Below, piece after piece: positions 3 through 43,395 of a stretch of 52,985 nt of DNA. The stretch is from positions 1-52,985 of IMG/VR virus record IMGVR_UViG_3300030099_007681, one strand, 5' to 3'. Within the stretch, counting starts at the first letter, position 1. Each line of letters opens with the position of its first letter. The notes beneath the pieces are model-generated. The model did not search any database. It saw nothing but the letters and a program-made list of their open reading frames with translations, and was not told where the DNA came from. The DNA comes from a virus. Both the position numbers and the translations under genes were made by a program.

Positions 3-173
3 GTGTTGGTTGTGTCAGAAGAGATGGTCGCTGATCCAAAAGTCAGCAAGAATATTGAGTCGGCAATCGCTTATGTTGGCGGTCGATGCGAGACACTTTT
101 CTCTGGCGTTTATGTCAGAAAGAATGTACCCGGTCTGATTGCTATACTAAGTATGAATGGATTAGCGACATGA
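3..173 (+). CDS. C-terminal fragment of an unknown protein
   Basis: The frame is open from the left edge of the window for 56 codons and ends in TGA at 171-173, so this is the tail of a gene that starts outside. The stop overlaps the next start as ATGA, the junction style used by most neighbours, which supports this frame over the overlapping ORF that could start at 86. The residues (SEEMVADPKVSKNIESAIAY near the start, then a GGRCETLFSG stretch) match no family I recognise. No function is proposed. Confidence 0.5.
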   Translation: MLVVSEEMVADPKVSKNIESAIAYVGGRCETLFSGVYVRKNVPGLIAILSMNGLAT

Positions 174-12850: not shown

Positions 12851-12971
12851 TTTTTTTTAGTTTTTCTGAACTAATTATAAACGAGTGGGCACTTGTATCT
12901 AAATTAACTTTGGATACTTGTATTTACTCATGCTATAAATTATAAAACTTATAAATGGAGGGTTTTTAAAA

Positions 12972-14591
12972 ATGGCTTACAAATTTCAATTCGGGCAGGC
13001 AATCTTGTCCGGTAACCTAGATCAAGAAGGCGATGTAGACGTTCTTGATGGAGGTGTTCTTAAAATGAACGGAACAACAGCTATTGCGTCTAACAGAGAC
13101 GCAACACTTGCTGGTGTTACTGCTACTACTCTCGGGCACGCAGATGATACTGATTTGTTAACATTAGCTGATCAGTCTCTTACAATTGCTAATGATGCTT
13201 CTCTTACATATAAGGGTACTGGTATCACATCGACTGGTGCAGAACTCAACTTAGTTGATGGCTCTCAAGCCGGCACAGTAGTTAATAACAAAGCTGTAAT
13301 TTACAGCGCTGGTGGAAATGTGCAAGGTAGTACATTTGCCGTACCAGATGATGGTACTATTGGTAATGGTTCTAATGCCGATGCGCTAACACTTGCTGCA
13401 GCCGAGATCACTGTCAAAGATGGTGTTGACTTCTCAGTTGCTACAGTTGGTGGTTTTAACTACGGCGGCGCCGCAGTTACTTCAACTGCTGCTGAGCTTA
13501 ACTTGGTTGATGGTGCTCAAGCTGGCACTCAGGTGGCCTCAAAGGCTGTTATCTACGATGCCTCAAGAGGTATTAACGCTCATGGTCTTACTGGTTCTCT
13601 CAGGTTCTCGCTTGATGTAGCACCTAACGGTGGTGTCGGTATGACCCCATTCAACAACAGCTCTGATGTTAACGACCTTAAGATCAGTGGTTCATTCATG
13701 GATTCGACAGCAGGGATTTCATTCGACAACGATTCTTTTGTTGCTCTTTCTGTCTCTGGTACTGTTAAGTCTTTCACGCTTGGCTCATATCTCACGGGCG
13801 CCGCGGGAAGAATGGATGGTGCTGGTATTGAAGCTGCTTCTGGTGTTTTGTCTGTGAAGGTCGATGATTCGTCTATCGAAATTAACAGTGATTCACTTCG
13901 CGTTAAAGCAGGCGGTGTTACCGATGCAATGCTTAACGATGATGTTGCATCCGGCTTAGCTGGTGATGGTCTTGCTGCTTCTTCCGGTGTTCTCTCTGTT
14001 GGTGTAGACGATTCTTCGATCGAAATTAACAGTGATTCACTTCGCGTTAAAGCAGCCGGTGTTACCGATGCAATGCTTAACGATGACGTTGCAACCGGCT
14101 TAGCTGGTGATGGTCTTGCCGCTACTTCTGGTGTCATGAAGCTTGATATTAACGAGTTGAGTGCTGCCAGTGTTGATGTTGCTGCCGATAGTATTGCTAT
14201 TGTTGATGCAGACGACAGCAACCTTTCGCGCAAGGAAAGCATTGCTGACCTTGTTGCCGCAATGGCTGGTGGTGGCCTTAGTGCTGCTGACGGTGTTCTT
14301 TCAACTCAAGGTGGTAACGTTAGTCAAAGCTTTGAGGGTAAAACACTTGTTGAAGGATATAACTATCTGACTGGAACTCTTGGAGCCAACAAGCTTATTC
14401 TTCCGCCAAACCCAAGCATAGGTGACGTAATTGTCATTAAGGCAGGTGATTTGGCAGCTGGTAAAACAGTTACCGTCAGTGCATCTGCTACTCACACTGT
14501 TGATGGCGTTCAGCGTCCAATTACGCTTGAATCACCATTTGCTGCTGTAAGCTGCGTTCTTACTAGAACTGCAAGTTGGTCTATCGTATAA
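12972..14591 (+). CDS. Fibre-like virion protein with internal 48-residue repeats, paralogue 3
   Basis: A 539-residue repetitive protein with a strong GGAGG site 11 bases before its ATG. It contains two copies of TSTGAELNLVDGSQAGT / TSTAAELNLVDGAQAGT (starting near residues 79 and 171), the xAELNLVDG motif common in phage tail fibres. Two near-identical 48-residue repeats (SSIEINSDSLRVKA, VTDAMLNDDVA, SGLAGDGLA) lie about residues 286-381. The C-terminal domain has IGDVIVIKAGD and LESPFAAVS, matching paralogue 2. Codon use in the second half looks more C/G-ending than its neighbours, as in the capsid gene, which suggests high expression. A terminator follows. Confidence 0.65.
   Translation: MAYKFQFGQAILSGNLDQEGDVDVLDGGVLKMNGTTAIASNRDATLAGVTATTLGHADDTDLLTLADQSLTIANDASLTYKGTGITSTGAELNLVDGSQAGTVVNNKAVIYSAGGNVQGSTFAVPDDGTIGNGSNADALTLAAAEITVKDGVDFSVATVGGFNYGGAAVTSTAAELNLVDGAQAGTQVASKAVIYDASRGINAHGLTGSLRFSLDVAPNGGVGMTPFNNSSDVNDLKISGSFMDSTAGISFDNDSFVALSVSGTVKSFTLGSYLTGAAGRMDGAGIEAASGVLSVKVDDSSIEINSDSLRVKAGGVTDAMLNDDVASGLAGDGLAASSGVLSVGVDDSSIEINSDSLRVKAAGVTDAMLNDDVATGLAGDGLAATSGVMKLDINELSAASVDVAADSIAIVDADDSNLSRKESIADLVAAMAGGGLSAADGVLSTQGGNVSQSFEGKTLVEGYNYLTGTLGANKLILPPNPSIGDVIVIKAGDLAAGKTVTVSASATHTVDGVQRPITLESPFAAVSCVLTRTASWSIV
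13828..14115 (+). repeat. Two tandem 144-bp in-frame repeats in the fibre gene
   Basis: Two direct copies with a period of 144 bases (48 codons), for example ATCGAAATTAACAGTGATTC at 13875 and again at 14019. They differ by a few, mostly silent, substitutions. They encode the SSIEINSDSLRVKA...DDVA(S/T)GLAGDGLAA unit. In-frame repeats in fibre genes let copy number change by recombination. The boundaries given are approximate. Confidence 0.8.
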
Positions 14592-37539: not shown

Positions 37540-38805
37540 ATGTCAAAATATTTAGTTGAAGAAAACTCTGAATCATCAATTCTACTTTTTAACAAAAGAA
37601 GACTATATCGGTCCATTTTGAGAGGACAAAACCATAATAATATTATACAAATGGACGTGGCAGAAAAAATATTATACGGTAGAATTGATTCAAACTTTTT
37701 ACCCTTAATCGTAACCAAAGCAAATCTAACAAGGTTACAAAGTTTTGATAATGAATTTGATCCTCCAAAAGCATTAAATTTTGTTGCGGACCTGTTTGCC
37801 GAAGTTGTTACACAATTTAAAAAATGCACCCAGATTGGAAATATTAGGCAAAATGATACCTACTTAAGTAATTTAAAAGCGTACAAAGCTTACGTGGACC
37901 CAATTGAGGAATATCAGCAATACATACAAACATACTCCGACTCAATTGCTGGTATGTTTATTGCTGACAATATTAAGGTCACAAACTTTGATGAGTTCAA
38001 AGAGGCTATACTGCCAGTCTTAAAAACTGCAGCTAGTTTTGAGCCCATAACATTTACTGGATTTTTAAAAAGTAAAAATTGTTCTGTCTTATCTACAGGA
38101 CTGGCGATTGAGATTGCAGATTCTGATTATATCAATGATAATGAAAAATTTGAAAGCTTTATTCAAAGTGAAAACTGGGAATTTTTTGTTAACACTTGCG
38201 ATTCGTATGGATTTATGGTAGATTTAAATGTTCCCTGGAGAATGATTATTGACCTTAATTCAACAGCAGCAATTGAAGCAGCTTCAAGATATATTGATGT
38301 TGCGACAGCAGATCAAACCTTATTTTATTATTACCAAAATTCATCAAGGGTAAATTATTCATTTTTTAAAAAAACATTGCTTGATCTTTATATGAATATA
38401 AGAAAAAACTATGCGCAAATATTTGAGTGCCAGGTAAGTAGAAAGCTTGTTCCGTCAGTCATTTCTGCACAAGCGTATACACTTGAGCAATTAACAAAAA
38501 AATATGATGAACAATATTTTATAGATTTTTATACAAGATTAAGATTGTTTGAAGAAAGGCGCGAATTGGACTCTGAAAAAATTAACAAAATTGTTGATGA
38601 TCAAATAAGTTTTTTTAATAGTAATGGAGACTACGAGCGTCTTTTTGTATATTTAGAGTCTCAAATCAATAAAACATTTGACAAAGAAGGCTCATTGGGA
38701 TATTATAACAATCTGTATAGAAAACGCAAGATTGAAAAATTTAATTTAGGCGAAATAAATATTCTAACAACTACAGAAGGTGGAGATGATTTTTCAGGCT
38801 ATTGA
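37540..38805 (+). CDS. Conserved virion structural protein, unassigned
   Basis: A 421-residue protein starting one base after the giant baseplate gene and ending inside the polymerase gene. It is rich in aromatic and Asn residues, with CDSYGFMVDLNVPWRMIIDL (about residues 226-245) and LFYYYQNSSRVNYSFFKKTL (about 265-284). I recall similar unassigned proteins near baseplate genes of large marine phages. No enzyme motif or signal is seen. It is the last gene of the virion module, and its 20-base overlap with the polymerase gene means the structural and replication modules meet without an intergenic space. Confidence 0.5.
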   Translation: MSKYLVEENSESSILLFNKRRLYRSILRGQNHNNIIQMDVAEKILYGRIDSNFLPLIVTKANLTRLQSFDNEFDPPKALNFVADLFAEVVTQFKKCTQIGNIRQNDTYLSNLKAYKAYVDPIEEYQQYIQTYSDSIAGMFIADNIKVTNFDEFKEAILPVLKTAASFEPITFTGFLKSKNCSVLSTGLAIEIADSDYINDNEKFESFIQSENWEFFVNTCDSYGFMVDLNVPWRMIIDLNSTAAIEAASRYIDVATADQTLFYYYQNSSRVNYSFFKKTLLDLYMNIRKNYAQIFECQVSRKLVPSVISAQAYTLEQLTKKYDEQYFIDFYTRLRLFEERRELDSEKINKIVDDQISFFNSNGDYERLFVYLESQINKTFDKEGSLGYYNNLYRKRKIEKFNLGEINILTTTEGGDDFSGY

Positions 38806-39955
38806 TGACAAAAATGAATGCATCGGCATATATGCCAACGGAAAACTTGATTTTGAAAATATACCAACTGGACTTACCCGAACATGGAAATACAGCGGGT
38901 CTGTAACTGATGAGGCAATTGAATATGGTTGGCTTTACGCAGGTGGCAAAAAATTAATTGATTGTTGTCCAGATGAACTAGTGGATGAATTACAAAGCGC
39001 ACAGAAAAAAGCGCGCGCTTACATCAAATCATTTGAAATTGCAAAAATTAATTTACGTGACCATTGTATATATGATTTAATACCATATGACTTTCTCATG
39101 GAGTTTTGCGAAGTTAAAAATAAAGTCACTGAGCACGTATTTAACAATTTTAACAAACCAAATAACTATGAACACTTAAATGCTGTGCAAAAATTGCTTC
39201 ATAAAATAAAGTATCAAAATTTAAACATCGATATTAGTGATTGCAAGCACTTACTAATATCATCCGTCGTAAGAAGTAAGATACAGAGGATATCAAAGAA
39301 TAATTTTATTGACTATGATTTATTTGGCACAGTAACAGGCCGTCTTACAACAAAACAAAATTCATTCCCTGTGCTTACTATGAAAAAAGAAATTAGACAA
39401 ATTATGAAGCCAAATAACGACCTTTTTATAGCATTGGATTACAATGGCGCAGAGGTGAGAACACTGCTTGAGCTACAGAGTGTTGAACAGCCAGCCGAGG
39501 ACATTCACGAGTGGAACTGTAAACATCTTTTTGAGCAAGAGGTTACAAGAGATGAGTGTAAGGTAAGATTTTTTGCATGGCTATATGATCCTGAATCAAC
39601 TGACATTAATACAAGATTATATAACCGTGAAAATCTTTTAGAAACGTGGTATGATGGCACGCATATTAGTACTCCATATGGCCGGCGCATTAAAGTAGAA
39701 AAAAGAAAAGCATTCAATTATTTAATTCAAAGTACAACTGCGGATCGTGTTTTAGAAAAAGCTGTTAAAATTGATAAATTGCTGGAAGGCCACAAAAGTT
39801 ACATATCTCATATAATTCATGATGAAATTGTTTTAGATTATTCTGATGAAGATCGTGGGTTAATTCCTTTAATAAAAAATATATTCGAAGATGGATTCTT
39901 GTCTTCGGTAAGTGCTGGAAAAAATGGGTTTGAACTAAAAGAGATAAAAATATGA
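38786..39955 (+). CDS. polA: Short family A DNA polymerase lacking a 3'-5' exonuclease domain
   Basis: A 389-residue polymerase. The frame could begin at GTG 38780, but ATG 38786 has AGAAGG five bases upstream. Palm and finger motifs are in order: DLFGTVTGRLTT (about 178-189), motif A FIALDYNGAEVRTLLEL (D218), DIHEWN (about 239-244), motif B R255-x3-K259-x7-Y267 (TRDECKVRFFAWLYDP), then AFNYLIQSTTAD (about 309-320) and motif C HIIHDEIVLDY (H345, D346). The fingers-palm connection is much shorter than in Pol I. The first 170 residues show no exonuclease motifs. It could replicate or repair DNA with separately encoded proofreading. T4-type phages normally use a family B polymerase. Confidence 0.88.
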   Translation: MIFQAIDDKNECIGIYANGKLDFENIPTGLTRTWKYSGSVTDEAIEYGWLYAGGKKLIDCCPDELVDELQSAQKKARAYIKSFEIAKINLRDHCIYDLIPYDFLMEFCEVKNKVTEHVFNNFNKPNNYEHLNAVQKLLHKIKYQNLNIDISDCKHLLISSVVRSKIQRISKNNFIDYDLFGTVTGRLTTKQNSFPVLTMKKEIRQIMKPNNDLFIALDYNGAEVRTLLELQSVEQPAEDIHEWNCKHLFEQEVTRDECKVRFFAWLYDPESTDINTRLYNRENLLETWYDGTHISTPYGRRIKVEKRKAFNYLIQSTTADRVLEKAVKIDKLLEGHKSYISHIIHDEIVLDYSDEDRGLIPLIKNIFEDGFLSSVSAGKNGFELKEIKI

Positions 39956-40815
39956 TTTCTATTATTGGATTAGGAAACGCTGCTTCAGCGATAGCAGAAC
40001 TGTTCTCAGAAATTAAGCAATACAAAATTTACAAACTTAATTCAAAAATTGAAAAAAATACTAAGTATAACTTTAAATTAAAAAATTTTGATAAGCCGGA
40101 AGATTATGAAAAAAATATTCCCAGATTAGGTAAGTTTTTTAGTACTATTGATAATAATGTACAGTTTATTGTTATGGGGGGCTCCTACAGTTCTAACTAC
40201 ACTTTAGGAATTTTAGAACAAATAAAAGATAAGCCCATAGACTTAATTTATATTCAGCCAGACACCGAATTACTAACGGGCAATCCTGTATTAATAGAAA
40301 ACACAACATTTGGAGTGCTTCAGGAGTATGCTAGGTCAGGATTGATAAACTCAATTACTTTAATTTCTAATCTTGCAATTGAAGAGTCTCTTGGAGACAT
40401 TAACATTAAAAACTATTATAATTCGCTAAACAACTTCATTTTTTCTGCAGTTCATCATTTAAATTATTTTGTACATTCAGAGCCAGAAATTGGACAGGTC
40501 TCACGTCCTGCTGATATTAATCGAATTCGTGCCATAGCTGGTCTTAATATGAAAAATCTTGAAGAAAAATGGTTTTTTAATCTTGACAACCCCAGAGAGC
40601 TATGTTATTATTTAGCTATAAATACAAAAAGATTGGAGACTGAAGGAGGCTTGCATAAAAAAATTGTAGATATGCTTAAACAAAAACCAAAAAATGCATT
40701 TCGCAAAATTTCTTATGCAATTTATGAAACACCTTACAATGACTTTGGGTTCTGCGTTGCCCATACTAACGTAGTACAAAACAAAAAAACTCTTGACAAG
40801 CTAGAACAAGAGTGA
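39952..40815 (+). CDS. Putative FtsZ/tubulin-superfamily protein
   Basis: A 287-residue protein coupled by ATGA to the polymerase. It starts MISIIGLGNAASAIAELF, a Rossmann-type first strand with a glycine loop like FtsZ T1. FIVMGGSYSSNYTLGILEQI (about residues 66-85) occupies the place of the GGGTGTG T4 loop. DLIYIQPDTELLTGN, then a helix ending YARSGLINSITLISNLAIEE, parallels the FtsZ T5 region, the A-x-x-G-L helix and the strand ending in I-P-N-D. SRPADINRIRAIAGL (about 183-197) lies where the T7 loop helix (N-x-D-F-A-D-V-R) is expected. The T4 and T7 loops are degenerate. Phage tubulins (PhuZ, TubZ) centre or segregate phage DNA. This is structural reasoning by eye. Confidence 0.5.
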   Translation: MISIIGLGNAASAIAELFSEIKQYKIYKLNSKIEKNTKYNFKLKNFDKPEDYEKNIPRLGKFFSTIDNNVQFIVMGGSYSSNYTLGILEQIKDKPIDLIYIQPDTELLTGNPVLIENTTFGVLQEYARSGLINSITLISNLAIEESLGDINIKNYYNSLNNFIFSAVHHLNYFVHSEPEIGQVSRPADINRIRAIAGLNMKNLEEKWFFNLDNPRELCYYLAINTKRLETEGGLHKKIVDMLKQKPKNAFRKISYAIYETPYNDFGFCVAHTNVVQNKKTLDKLEQE

Positions 40816-40872: not shown

Positions 40873-41643
40873 ATGTCAATCAATATGGAACTAATGAGAA
40901 AGAAACTTGCCACACTTCGTGGGGAGCGTGACAAGGATGAAAGCTCACCCTTTTTTAAGCCAGACGAGGGCGATACCGATATTCGTATTGTGCCCACCAA
41001 TGATGGCGACCCCTTGAAGGAAATGTTCTTCCACTATAATGTGGGCGATCACAAGGGAGGTATTCTCTGCCCTAAGCGTAATTACGGGGAGACATGCCCA
41101 ATTTGCTCATTCGCTTCTTCACTTTGGCGTGAAGGAGTTGACAACAACGATGATGAGAGTAAGAAGCTTGCTAAAAGCCTCTTTGTGCGAACCCGCTACT
41201 TCTCACCAGTCATTGTGCGAGGACGAGAAGAAGAAGGAATCAAGGTCTATGGCTACGGTAAGCAAGCCTATGAACTTCTTCTTGGATATATTCTCGATCC
41301 AGAATATGGTGATATCACAGATTCCAAGGAGGGAACCGATATCACTCTTACATACACCAAGCCAAACAAGCCTGGTGCATATCCACAAACGAGCCTCAAG
41401 ATGCGCCGTAACACATCCACCTTGCTGGAAGACGCAGAAGCGATCCCCGCCCTCCTTGATCGCATGCCTGACTTTGACGGACTTTTTGAACGTCTTAGTG
41501 CTCAGCAAGTCGGCGCTATCTTGGACGAGCAACTTTCGGGTGATAGTTCAGCCGAAAGCCGCTCTTCAGAAACAGCTAAATATGGTCCCGCCAACGGTAA
41601 GAGCAGTGTTGACCAAGCATTTGATGAACTAATGAGTAGCTAA
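40873..41643 (+). CDS. 32: Single-stranded DNA-binding protein (T4 gp32-like)
   Basis: A 256-residue ssDNA-binding protein with an AGGAG site. The N-terminal basic helix (MSINMELMRKKLATLRGERD) corresponds to the cooperative-binding arm. The OB core carries the gp32 zinc site (HKGGILCPKRNYGETCPIC: H60, C66, C75, C78), and YFSPVIV follows. The tail is serine-rich and ends with acidic FDELMSS, the typical protein-interaction end. Codons are biased towards C-ending forms, as in the capsid gene, consistent with abundance. Own promoter upstream, hairpin terminator downstream. It coordinates polymerase, helicase and UvsX at the fork. Confidence 0.9.
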   Translation: MSINMELMRKKLATLRGERDKDESSPFFKPDEGDTDIRIVPTNDGDPLKEMFFHYNVGDHKGGILCPKRNYGETCPICSFASSLWREGVDNNDDESKKLAKSLFVRTRYFSPVIVRGREEEGIKVYGYGKQAYELLLGYILDPEYGDITDSKEGTDITLTYTKPNKPGAYPQTSLKMRRNTSTLLEDAEAIPALLDRMPDFDGLFERLSAQQVGAILDEQLSGDSSAESRSSETAKYGPANGKSSVDQAFDELMSS

Positions 41644-42081: not shown

Positions 42082-43395
42082 ATGACTAGACACGTTATAA
42101 CATTGCCTCTTGCGGGCAAAAATGCTGTTGCACAAGCAGCGCTTCCTCGCCAGGAAGCATCACCAGATGATGTACCAATTATGCACTATGTGTGCTTTGT
42201 TGAACCATCTATTAATAATGGGCTGGAGCTAATTCCAAAGGGCCCAAACCCTCGATATGTCAATATTGATGGTAAAATTCCTAAAGAAATTGAAAAGTCT
42301 TTTATTGAAGACGAAAACTTTGCTATTAAGAATAGAGGCTTACAAATTATTATTGATGATGGGTCATTTGATGTTGTTACAATCGATGGAACACCACACG
42401 TGAAGTTTAGTTGTTCAGAACCCGGCATGACTGGCCATTATGATGGTCAACATACAGGTGATCGGGTTACCACTGCTGTAAAGCAGCTTGGAGAGCAGGG
42501 TCACAAGCAACACTTACCAGTTCAGTTGGTAGAAAGAGCAGCCTTTAGGACTCTTAAGGAAATGCGCGATGCTGCCAAAGCAATTAATAATGTACAGAAA
42601 CAAAAGAATATTAGTGAATTTGATATTGCTGGTGGGTTTGATGAACTCAAGAATAATTTAAGCTATTGTGCTCAAGAAAACATTGGCTGGGCTCAAAATC
42701 AAATTTCTACAGCCGGTACCCGCGTCACCAGTGAATGTCAGGCTACACAAGTTACTTGCCTGCTTGGTTCTTTGCTGCCTAAGACTTTTAGATCTGGCGC
42801 ATCTTTAAGTGACATTAGTTCGTGGCCCAAAAAGGGCGAAGCTGTAATTAATAAGTTTAACGAAAAAGGAGTTGGACAATTGCTCTACCGCGCAGCTACT
42901 GAGATTGATACGCTATTGGAACTGTCAGACTATATCCAAAGCACGCTGAAAAGTACTTTAGGGGGCCAATATGAAACCTATGGTATTTTGAGGGCTTCCA
43001 CCGCCGCACAGTTAAAAAAGTCAGTTGAGGATAGAAAAGCATATAAGTCCTCTTTATTTAAGACCGGGGGATCTAACGACCATACGCTAAATAAAGATAT
43101 CATGCCAGTTGTATGTTATTCAATTGTCAATAGTGTTTATGAATATGACGACCAGTCTGGGTTTACTACAAATTATTCAATTGACGAAATGAAGGCAATT
43201 TGGAAGGAGGCAGGCCCTGCGGTTCTTTCTAGCATTGAAAATCGTTATCGTAATAGTTTTCAGACAAATTATAAATCACGTTGGGCTGATTTTGCTTTAG
43301 ATATTACAATGTGGGCACAGTGTGCCGATCTTGTTCAGCGAGTAATTTATAATCCTCAATCCTGGAAGAGACACTTAAGTCAAAAAGTTGCTTAA
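42082..43395 (+). CDS. AIPR-like protein (abortive-infection phage-resistance family)
   Basis: A 437-residue protein with AAGGA upstream. Residues about 75-135 read FAIKNRGLQIIIDDGSFDVV, VKFSCSEPGMTGHYDGQHTG and DRVTTAVKQL. This follows the AIPR order (N-x-G-I-x-I.., then a G-Q-T or D-G-Q-H-like turn with a helix). LPVQLVE and, about 30 residues on, KAINNVQKQKNIS match the following strand and the T/N-N-x-Q motif. The C-terminal half is helical and not recognised. AIPR proteins occur in bacterial defence loci, and their mechanism is poorly understood. Its place in a phage between SSB and uvsX suggests a DNA-linked function or a counter-defence decoy. Assignment is by eye and moderate. Confidence 0.45.
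   Translation: MTRHVITLPLAGKNAVAQAALPRQEASPDDVPIMHYVCFVEPSINNGLELIPKGPNPRYVNIDGKIPKEIEKSFIEDENFAIKNRGLQIIIDDGSFDVVTIDGTPHVKFSCSEPGMTGHYDGQHTGDRVTTAVKQLGEQGHKQHLPVQLVERAAFRTLKEMRDAAKAINNVQKQKNISEFDIAGGFDELKNNLSYCAQENIGWAQNQISTAGTRVTSECQATQVTCLLGSLLPKTFRSGASLSDISSWPKKGEAVINKFNEKGVGQLLYRAATEIDTLLELSDYIQSTLKSTLGGQYETYGILRASTAAQLKKSVEDRKAYKSSLFKTGGSNDHTLNKDIMPVVCYSIVNSVYEYDDQSGFTTNYSIDEMKAIWKEAGPAVLSSIENRYRNSFQTNYKSRWADFALDITMWAQCADLVQRVIYNPQSWKRHLSQKVA

Follow-up and report, generated by a model that had tools for sequence, protein, structure and literature searches.

The window analyzed here (52,985 nucleotides, positions 1 to 52,985 of IMG/VR virus record IMGVR_UViG_3300030099_007681) comes from an uncultured lineage in which a gene whose 287-residue product very likely adopts the tubulin/FtsZ superfamily fold, as judged from model prediction, is translationally coupled to a DNA polymerase gene, and in one clade this gene is paired with that of a second, canonical tubulin. 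This combination appears to be new. Phage tubulins have been reported mainly in jumbo phages that form a nucleus (PhuZ) and in plasmid-like or c-st-like prophages (TubZ) (PMC7950403, PMC7824862), according to a marine jumbo phage survey tubulin is unique to the phiKZ-like cluster (PMC9123017), and no paper joining Far-T4 phages with tubulin was found in the literature searched. The coupled and canonical genes suggest an unknown cytoskeleton tied to the copying of viral DNA, and a working role of the coupled tubulin in replication, while inferred, is likely.

The coupled gene lies within a replication operon with the following features:
37540..38805, + strand, 421-aa gene of unknown function 5' of the polymerase gene, present in 83 of 83 family members with room for it
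38780..39955, + strand, compact family A DNA polymerase (PolA, 391 aa), the coupled upstream gene (PF00476, 1.2e-12; phrog_17 DNA polymerase, 3.9e-15)
39952..39955, + strand, ATGA overlap of polymerase stop and tubulin-like start (translational coupling)
39952..40815, + strand, predicted tubulin/FtsZ-fold gene (287 aa), an open reading frame with an ATG start
40873..41643, + strand, gp32-like single-strand DNA-binding protein (SSB), the downstream neighbor (PF08804, 2.6e-13; 105 of 107 members)

The TGA of the polymerase frame shares its ATGA with the ATG of the tubulin-like gene; PolA is encoded immediately 5' in all 115 members with room for it, and the overlap is kept in 94 of these. Compared codon by codon with its three nearest relatives, the gene had a pN of about 0.09, a pS of about 0.7-0.8 and, where computable, a dN/dS near 0.05; the protein is thus under strong purifying selection. 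With relatives at the same place in far more than 100 viral contigs in addition to this ratio, 39952-40815 is a real gene. The preliminary description had proposed both the 287-residue reading frame and its coupling to the polymerase, and both held, the overlap being confirmed and also conserved in the family. The polymerase is too short to contain a 3'-5' exonuclease domain, and therefore the proofreading enzyme, if any, is encoded elsewhere. UvsX, a 5'-3' exonuclease family protein and a DnaB-type helicase are encoded further downstream. The 421-aa product had no match in Pfam or PHROGs; PHROGs likewise gave no match to the 437-aa product of the gene at 42082-43395, which separates SSB from UvsX.

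The 287-residue protein belongs to an unnamed family, members of which occur in hundreds of contigs from uncultured marine viruses of the Far-T4 type. When IMG/VR was scanned with a protein as seed, 75 loci were returned; a profile-seeded scan confirmed at least 595 stretches, and a scan seeded with a divergent sequence of the family revealed a further clade, clade B, of about 30 members. Most members of clade A, to which the window protein belongs, are 57-86% identical to it and those of clade B 32-41%, and both clades align over the whole length; the conservation counts given below refer to 118 sequences, 89 from clade A and 29 from clade B. No carrier of the family was found in the searches made of named phages and genome contigs, in that tblastn gave no real relative among the former and a scan with a single peptide pattern gave none among the latter. 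Since its capsid protein is nearest to those of Flavobacterium phage immuto, Microcystis phage Mel-JY01 and Rhodothermus phage RM378, the window phage was placed with the Far-T4 group. The hosts predicted in the literature for marine Far-T4 phages are Flavobacteriales/Bacteroidota (PMC13037479, PMC7198788); the lineage is widespread and uncultured, with hosts that are probably Bacteroidota.

The evidence for the fold is chiefly structural. An AlphaFold2 model of the window protein, computed with 31 family sequences in the input, had a pLDDT of 90.3 and a pTM of 0.89, and Foldseek matched it to FtsZ (5.4e-13) and TubZ (1.7e-12) in the PDB. By VIA-align, residues 1-287 matched CetZ with Z 23.5 (rmsd 3.6, 266 residues aligned), TubZ with Z 22.5 (rmsd 3.6, 280 aligned) and M. 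jannaschii FtsZ with Z 21.8 (rmsd 3.5, 267 aligned). A clade B protein modeled independently (pLDDT 92.7) matched CetZ with Z 25.4 and FtsZ with Z 23.6. For each of the two models all 50 listed PDB entries were members of the tubulin superfamily, aligned over both domains and the full length, and the two-domain arrangement of GTPase domain, helix H7 and C-terminal domain is present in both (Z 21-25). In a viral structure library, the best eight matches of the window protein, where named, were phage FtsZ, tubulin or PhuZ, and unrelated enzymes ranked some logs later with only partial coverage.

Similarity at the sequence level is weak but not absent. Searches of Pfam, PHROGs and PDB sequences with the window protein and the family profile gave only chance-level matches, PF00091 did not match the window protein, and only three of 23 clade B members matched PF00091 weakly (best E 0.0086). 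Profile-profile alignment (hhalign), on the other hand, placed T1, T4, T6 and H7 in register with FtsZ, and T1-T4 in register with PhuZ, at P 0.0006-0.008, and none of the 59-60 column-shuffled decoys run per comparison attained the real score. It should be kept in mind that the loops were assigned from hhalign and secondary structure and not by residue-by-residue structural superposition. Membership of the FtsZ/tubulin superfamily, as claimed in the preliminary description, thus held in two separately modeled clades. The alternative that would have refuted it, a plain Rossmann dehydrogenase-like protein with coincidental tubulin motifs, has in its favor that a few family members match NAD-binding Pfam families weakly, with scores below the cut-off; however, it is all but excluded by the full-length, two-domain tubulin matches (Z > 21) that fill both lists of 50 structures, and sugar epimerases and similar enzymes were only partial and far weaker matches in the viral structure search.

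Within this predicted fold, the following elements bear on nucleotide binding and hydrolysis:
39961..39999, + strand, T1 loop, residues 4-16 (IIGLGNAASAIAE); Gly8 invariant, clade B reads GLGQAGCNIAE
40174..40197, + strand, T4 position, residues 75-82 (MGGSYSSN), degenerate by profile alignment and family conservation
40369..40371, + strand, Asn140, putative T6 guanine contact, aligned with EcFtsZ Asn165 in the hhalign register
40417..40431, + strand, Tyr156 and Asn160 on H7, remaining putative guanine contacts, aligned with EcFtsZ Phe182 and Asn186 (conservation, hhalign register)
40477..40527, + strand, T7/H8 region, residues 176-192, without N-x-D-x-x-D and without helix H8 (model, family conservation); Glu177 is the conserved acid

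The residues of the guanine pocket are kept. The glycine-rich T1 loop, with Gly8 invariant in all 118 sequences, reads GLGNAAS in clade A and GLGQAGCN in clade B. Asn140 and Asn160 are each Asn in 88 of 89 clade A and 29 of 29 clade B sequences, and an aromatic residue (Tyr or Phe) occupies position 156 in nearly all sequences. In FtsZ and tubulin, the positions equivalent to EcFtsZ Asn165, Phe182 and Asn186 contact guanine, and the four-residue spacing of 156 and 160 on H7 (residues 152-175 in the AlphaFold2 model) also fits these contacts, although the assignment was made by alignment and not from a ligand-bound structure. Because these elements of the pocket are retained, it is likely, by inference and without binding data, that the coupled protein binds a guanine nucleotide, GTP or GDP. 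As a separate observation, the T1 and T6 (DN) loops of clade B are more tubulin-like than those of clade A, yet no second tubulin was found in the large contigs of this clade.

The catalytic face is altered. The GGGTG(S/T)G signature of T4 is absent, being replaced by GSSxSSNY in clade A and mostly by (G/S)(C/S)GxISGAS or similar in clade B, and, by sequence and model, most of T3 and the T7/H8 face have been lost as well. The T7/H8 face of tubulins and FtsZ triggers hydrolysis in the neighboring subunit. Standard T7-driven hydrolysis by the coupled protein is hence regarded as unlikely, an inference for which there are no GTPase data. The motif positions given in the preliminary description were all confirmed, namely the first strand and loop at 4-16, MGGSYSSN at 75-82, P-x-x-E-L-L-x-G at 103-110, A-R-S-G-L at 127-131, I-S-N at 138-140 and ADINRIRAI at 187-195, and the degeneracy of T4 and T7 that it noted held across the 118 sequences. 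The T7 acid that it placed within ADINRIRAI (Asp188) was not upheld as a strong family feature, this position being D/E in 74 of 89 clade A but only 16 of 29 clade B sequences; position 177 is the better conserved acid (88 of 89 and 24 of 29) and could possibly still be catalytic, but it is unplaced relative to the GTP of the neighboring subunit.

An intact nucleotide face combined with a lost T7 face could, judging from anatomy, cap a filament of host FtsZ, and the coupled protein might then be a decoy that binds FtsZ and blocks cell division during infection. This explanation is very unlikely, as the gene sits within the replication operon coupled to PolA, and no FtsZ blocker with a tubulin fold is known to us. 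Interference with host division and the positioning of replicating DNA, both suggested in the preliminary description, remain guesses without a supporting test.

The canonical tubulin, which the preliminary description had missed, is represented in the window only by its tail:
3..173, + strand, 3' end (56 codons and TGA) of the second, canonical tubulin gene, which is truncated where the contig begins; its translation is 98% identical to full-length relatives, of which that at L199:1303-2436 passes PF00091

It was first met in a PF00091 search of whole contigs, in which three relatives matched. The full-length protein has 378 aa, scores above the Pfam cut-off and carries T1 GVGGGGNK, T4 GGGGGTGS, T6 LDNE and an acidic T7, FDSKDLE; in its full-length relatives the N terminus is extended by about 60 residues of conserved, acidic sequence. 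The gene adjoins an SbcCD-like gene and lies about 40 kb from the coupled gene (39.8 kb between tail and coupled gene in the window). Among 20 large contigs picked by the canonical gene, eight carry the coupled gene 39-42 kb downstream, one spanning the contig ends, while the remaining 12 end within about 33 kb downstream, and absence of the coupled gene there is uninformative. When G008 is added, a contig that encodes a protein 85% identical to the window protein and has its two genes 43 kb apart, both tubulins occur in nine of nine contigs that are long enough; three of these were chosen for carrying the coupled gene and six are independent, and two are about 195 kb and probably near-complete. 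In clade B, no search made found the canonical gene in contigs of 188 and 168 kb. Mean identity between genomes was 94% for the canonical tubulin, 85% for terminase, 76% for SSB, 60% for the coupled tubulin and 56% for PolA.

Two side observations concern this end of the genome. The open reading frame listed from position 86 (86-679) runs out of frame over the tubulin tail, and its true start is likely ATG 170, again an ATGA overlap, here with the tubulin stop. Several small proteins encoded near head genes begin with a similar motif (MKITKSKLKKLLIEE, MKINRSQLKQIIKEE, MLITETRLKEIIREE), their genes being located at 984-1580 in the window, L199:950-1303, L201:281-616 (- strand), and L202:5522-6331 and 12967-13572; this common start may perhaps be a shared targeting or cleaved leader peptide.

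It is possible that the coupled protein is a self-sufficient filament of the PhuZ/TubZ kind, which binds GTP, polymerizes alone, hydrolyzes GTP by means of an unorthodox acid such as residue 177 and positions replicating DNA. In clade B phages it is the sole tubulin found and has the more canonical T1 loop, the full two-domain fold is kept, and position 177 is acidic in most sequences of both clades. Against this, the GGGTG(S/T)G loop, N-x-D-x-x-D and H8 are lacking, and T7, the base of H8 and S9 build the protofilament interface in phiKZ TubZ (PMC3678025); in addition, it is unusual for the coupled protein to diverge by about 40% from one related genome to another when the canonical tubulin is 94% conserved. 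A polymerase accessory subunit, in which the tubulin fold serves as a scaffold or GTP switch without any filament, for instance in processivity or primer handling for the exonuclease-less PolA, is supported by the strict adjacency to PolA and SSB, by a divergence that parallels that of PolA and by the degenerate polymer-forming loops. It is considered unlikely, because the cultured phage immuto does without a coupled tubulin in a comparable PolA-SSB module and the second tubulin is left unaccounted for, and no tubulin-fold protein is known to us to act in this way.

The preferred reading is that of an adaptor, nucleator or end-cap, held overall with slightly less than even confidence and inferred, as polymerization, GTP binding and contact with PolA are untested. 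The coupled tubulin is translated off the polymerase mRNA through the stop-start overlap and hence made together with the phage PolA and probably held near it; it would bind GTP or GDP, hydrolyze it poorly and form no homopolymer of fast turnover. In phages with both genes it may then tie the replisome to filaments of the canonical tubulin, through contacts that are likewise inferred, whereas in clade B, where no second tubulin was found, it may act alone or with another filament and may polymerize by itself. The fold (by prediction), the conservation, including that of the guanine pocket, the changes in T4, T7 and H8, the operon position with its family-wide coupling to PolA and the canonical tubulin in clade A genomes are shown. 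The adaptor mechanism accounts for the strict coupling to PolA, the PolA-like pace of divergence and the constancy of the canonical partner, and identities of 94% and 60% are what one would predict for a filament subunit and a less constrained adaptor, respectively. There is no direct evidence that the coupled tubulin touches PolA or the canonical tubulin. A mirror-tree (distance-correlation) test gave no specific polymerase-tubulin signal; polymerase distances co-vary with those of every neighbor, and the correlation is therefore uninformative. Since clade B has the gene without a second tubulin found, the canonical protein is not needed in every phage, and the adaptor mechanism leaves the more canonical T1 loop and missing partner of this clade unexplained.

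A bolder version of the adaptor reading, no more than possible and wholly inferred, is a two-component tubulin system, with a conserved canonical filament and a degenerate, polymerase-tethered nucleator or cap at the replisome. If true, it would parallel, on the side of viruses, the division of labor among alpha-, beta- and gamma-tubulin, and this in phages of lytic type for which no phage nucleus is known. If the link to the replisome is real, this would be a cytoskeleton with a direct tie to a DNA polymerase, and these phages would offer a simple model for tubulin split into filament and cap roles.

Among cultured Far-T4-like phages, Flavobacterium phage immuto shares a related capsid protein and the order PolA, SSB, RecA/UvsX and exonuclease, but it has two small unrelated open reading frames between PolA and SSB, and neither tubulin was found in its genome. 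The possibility that these two frames represent a split tubulin was rejected for lack of similarity.

Compared with PhuZ of the phiKZ-like nucleus-forming phages, the coupled protein is likewise a phage-encoded tubulin fold that aligns at T1-T4 by profile, and Noxifer PhuZ is among its best viral structure matches. However, it fails phrog_4733 and PF22334, both of which are matched by phiKZ PhuZ as the positive control, it has no equivalent of the T7 acids Asp201 and Asp204 that are invariant in six PhuZ sequences, and its family is coupled to a family A polymerase. Searches of the large relatives for chimallin and the T4 sliding clamp gave no match but were run without a positive control and are uninformative. 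TubZ of Bacillus plasmids and phage c-st shares the two-domain fold, and the clade B T1 loop resembles those of tubulin and TubZ; in contrast, the window protein is shorter, its T4 and T7 are not standard, and no partition genes were recognized beside its gene, where the neighbors are PolA, SSB and UvsX (no dedicated TubR search was made). CetZ and FtsZ are the best structural matches, and the guanine-pocket residues are in register with FtsZ, but identity is only 10-16%, PF00091 is not matched, the T4/T7 motifs are missing and there is no link to cell division genes. The canonical tubulin, whose nearest named relative is gp138 of Bacillus phage G, occurs in the same genomes and belongs to the same superfamily, and it differs from the coupled protein in its length, its full set of T1, T4, T6 and T7 motifs and its strong conservation. 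Because the T4 signature is missing, PF00091 is not matched and the PhuZ profiles failed, the coupled protein is classed separately, and it likely represents a new, degenerate family of the tubulin fold superfamily that is distinct from FtsZ, TubZ, PhuZ and CetZ.
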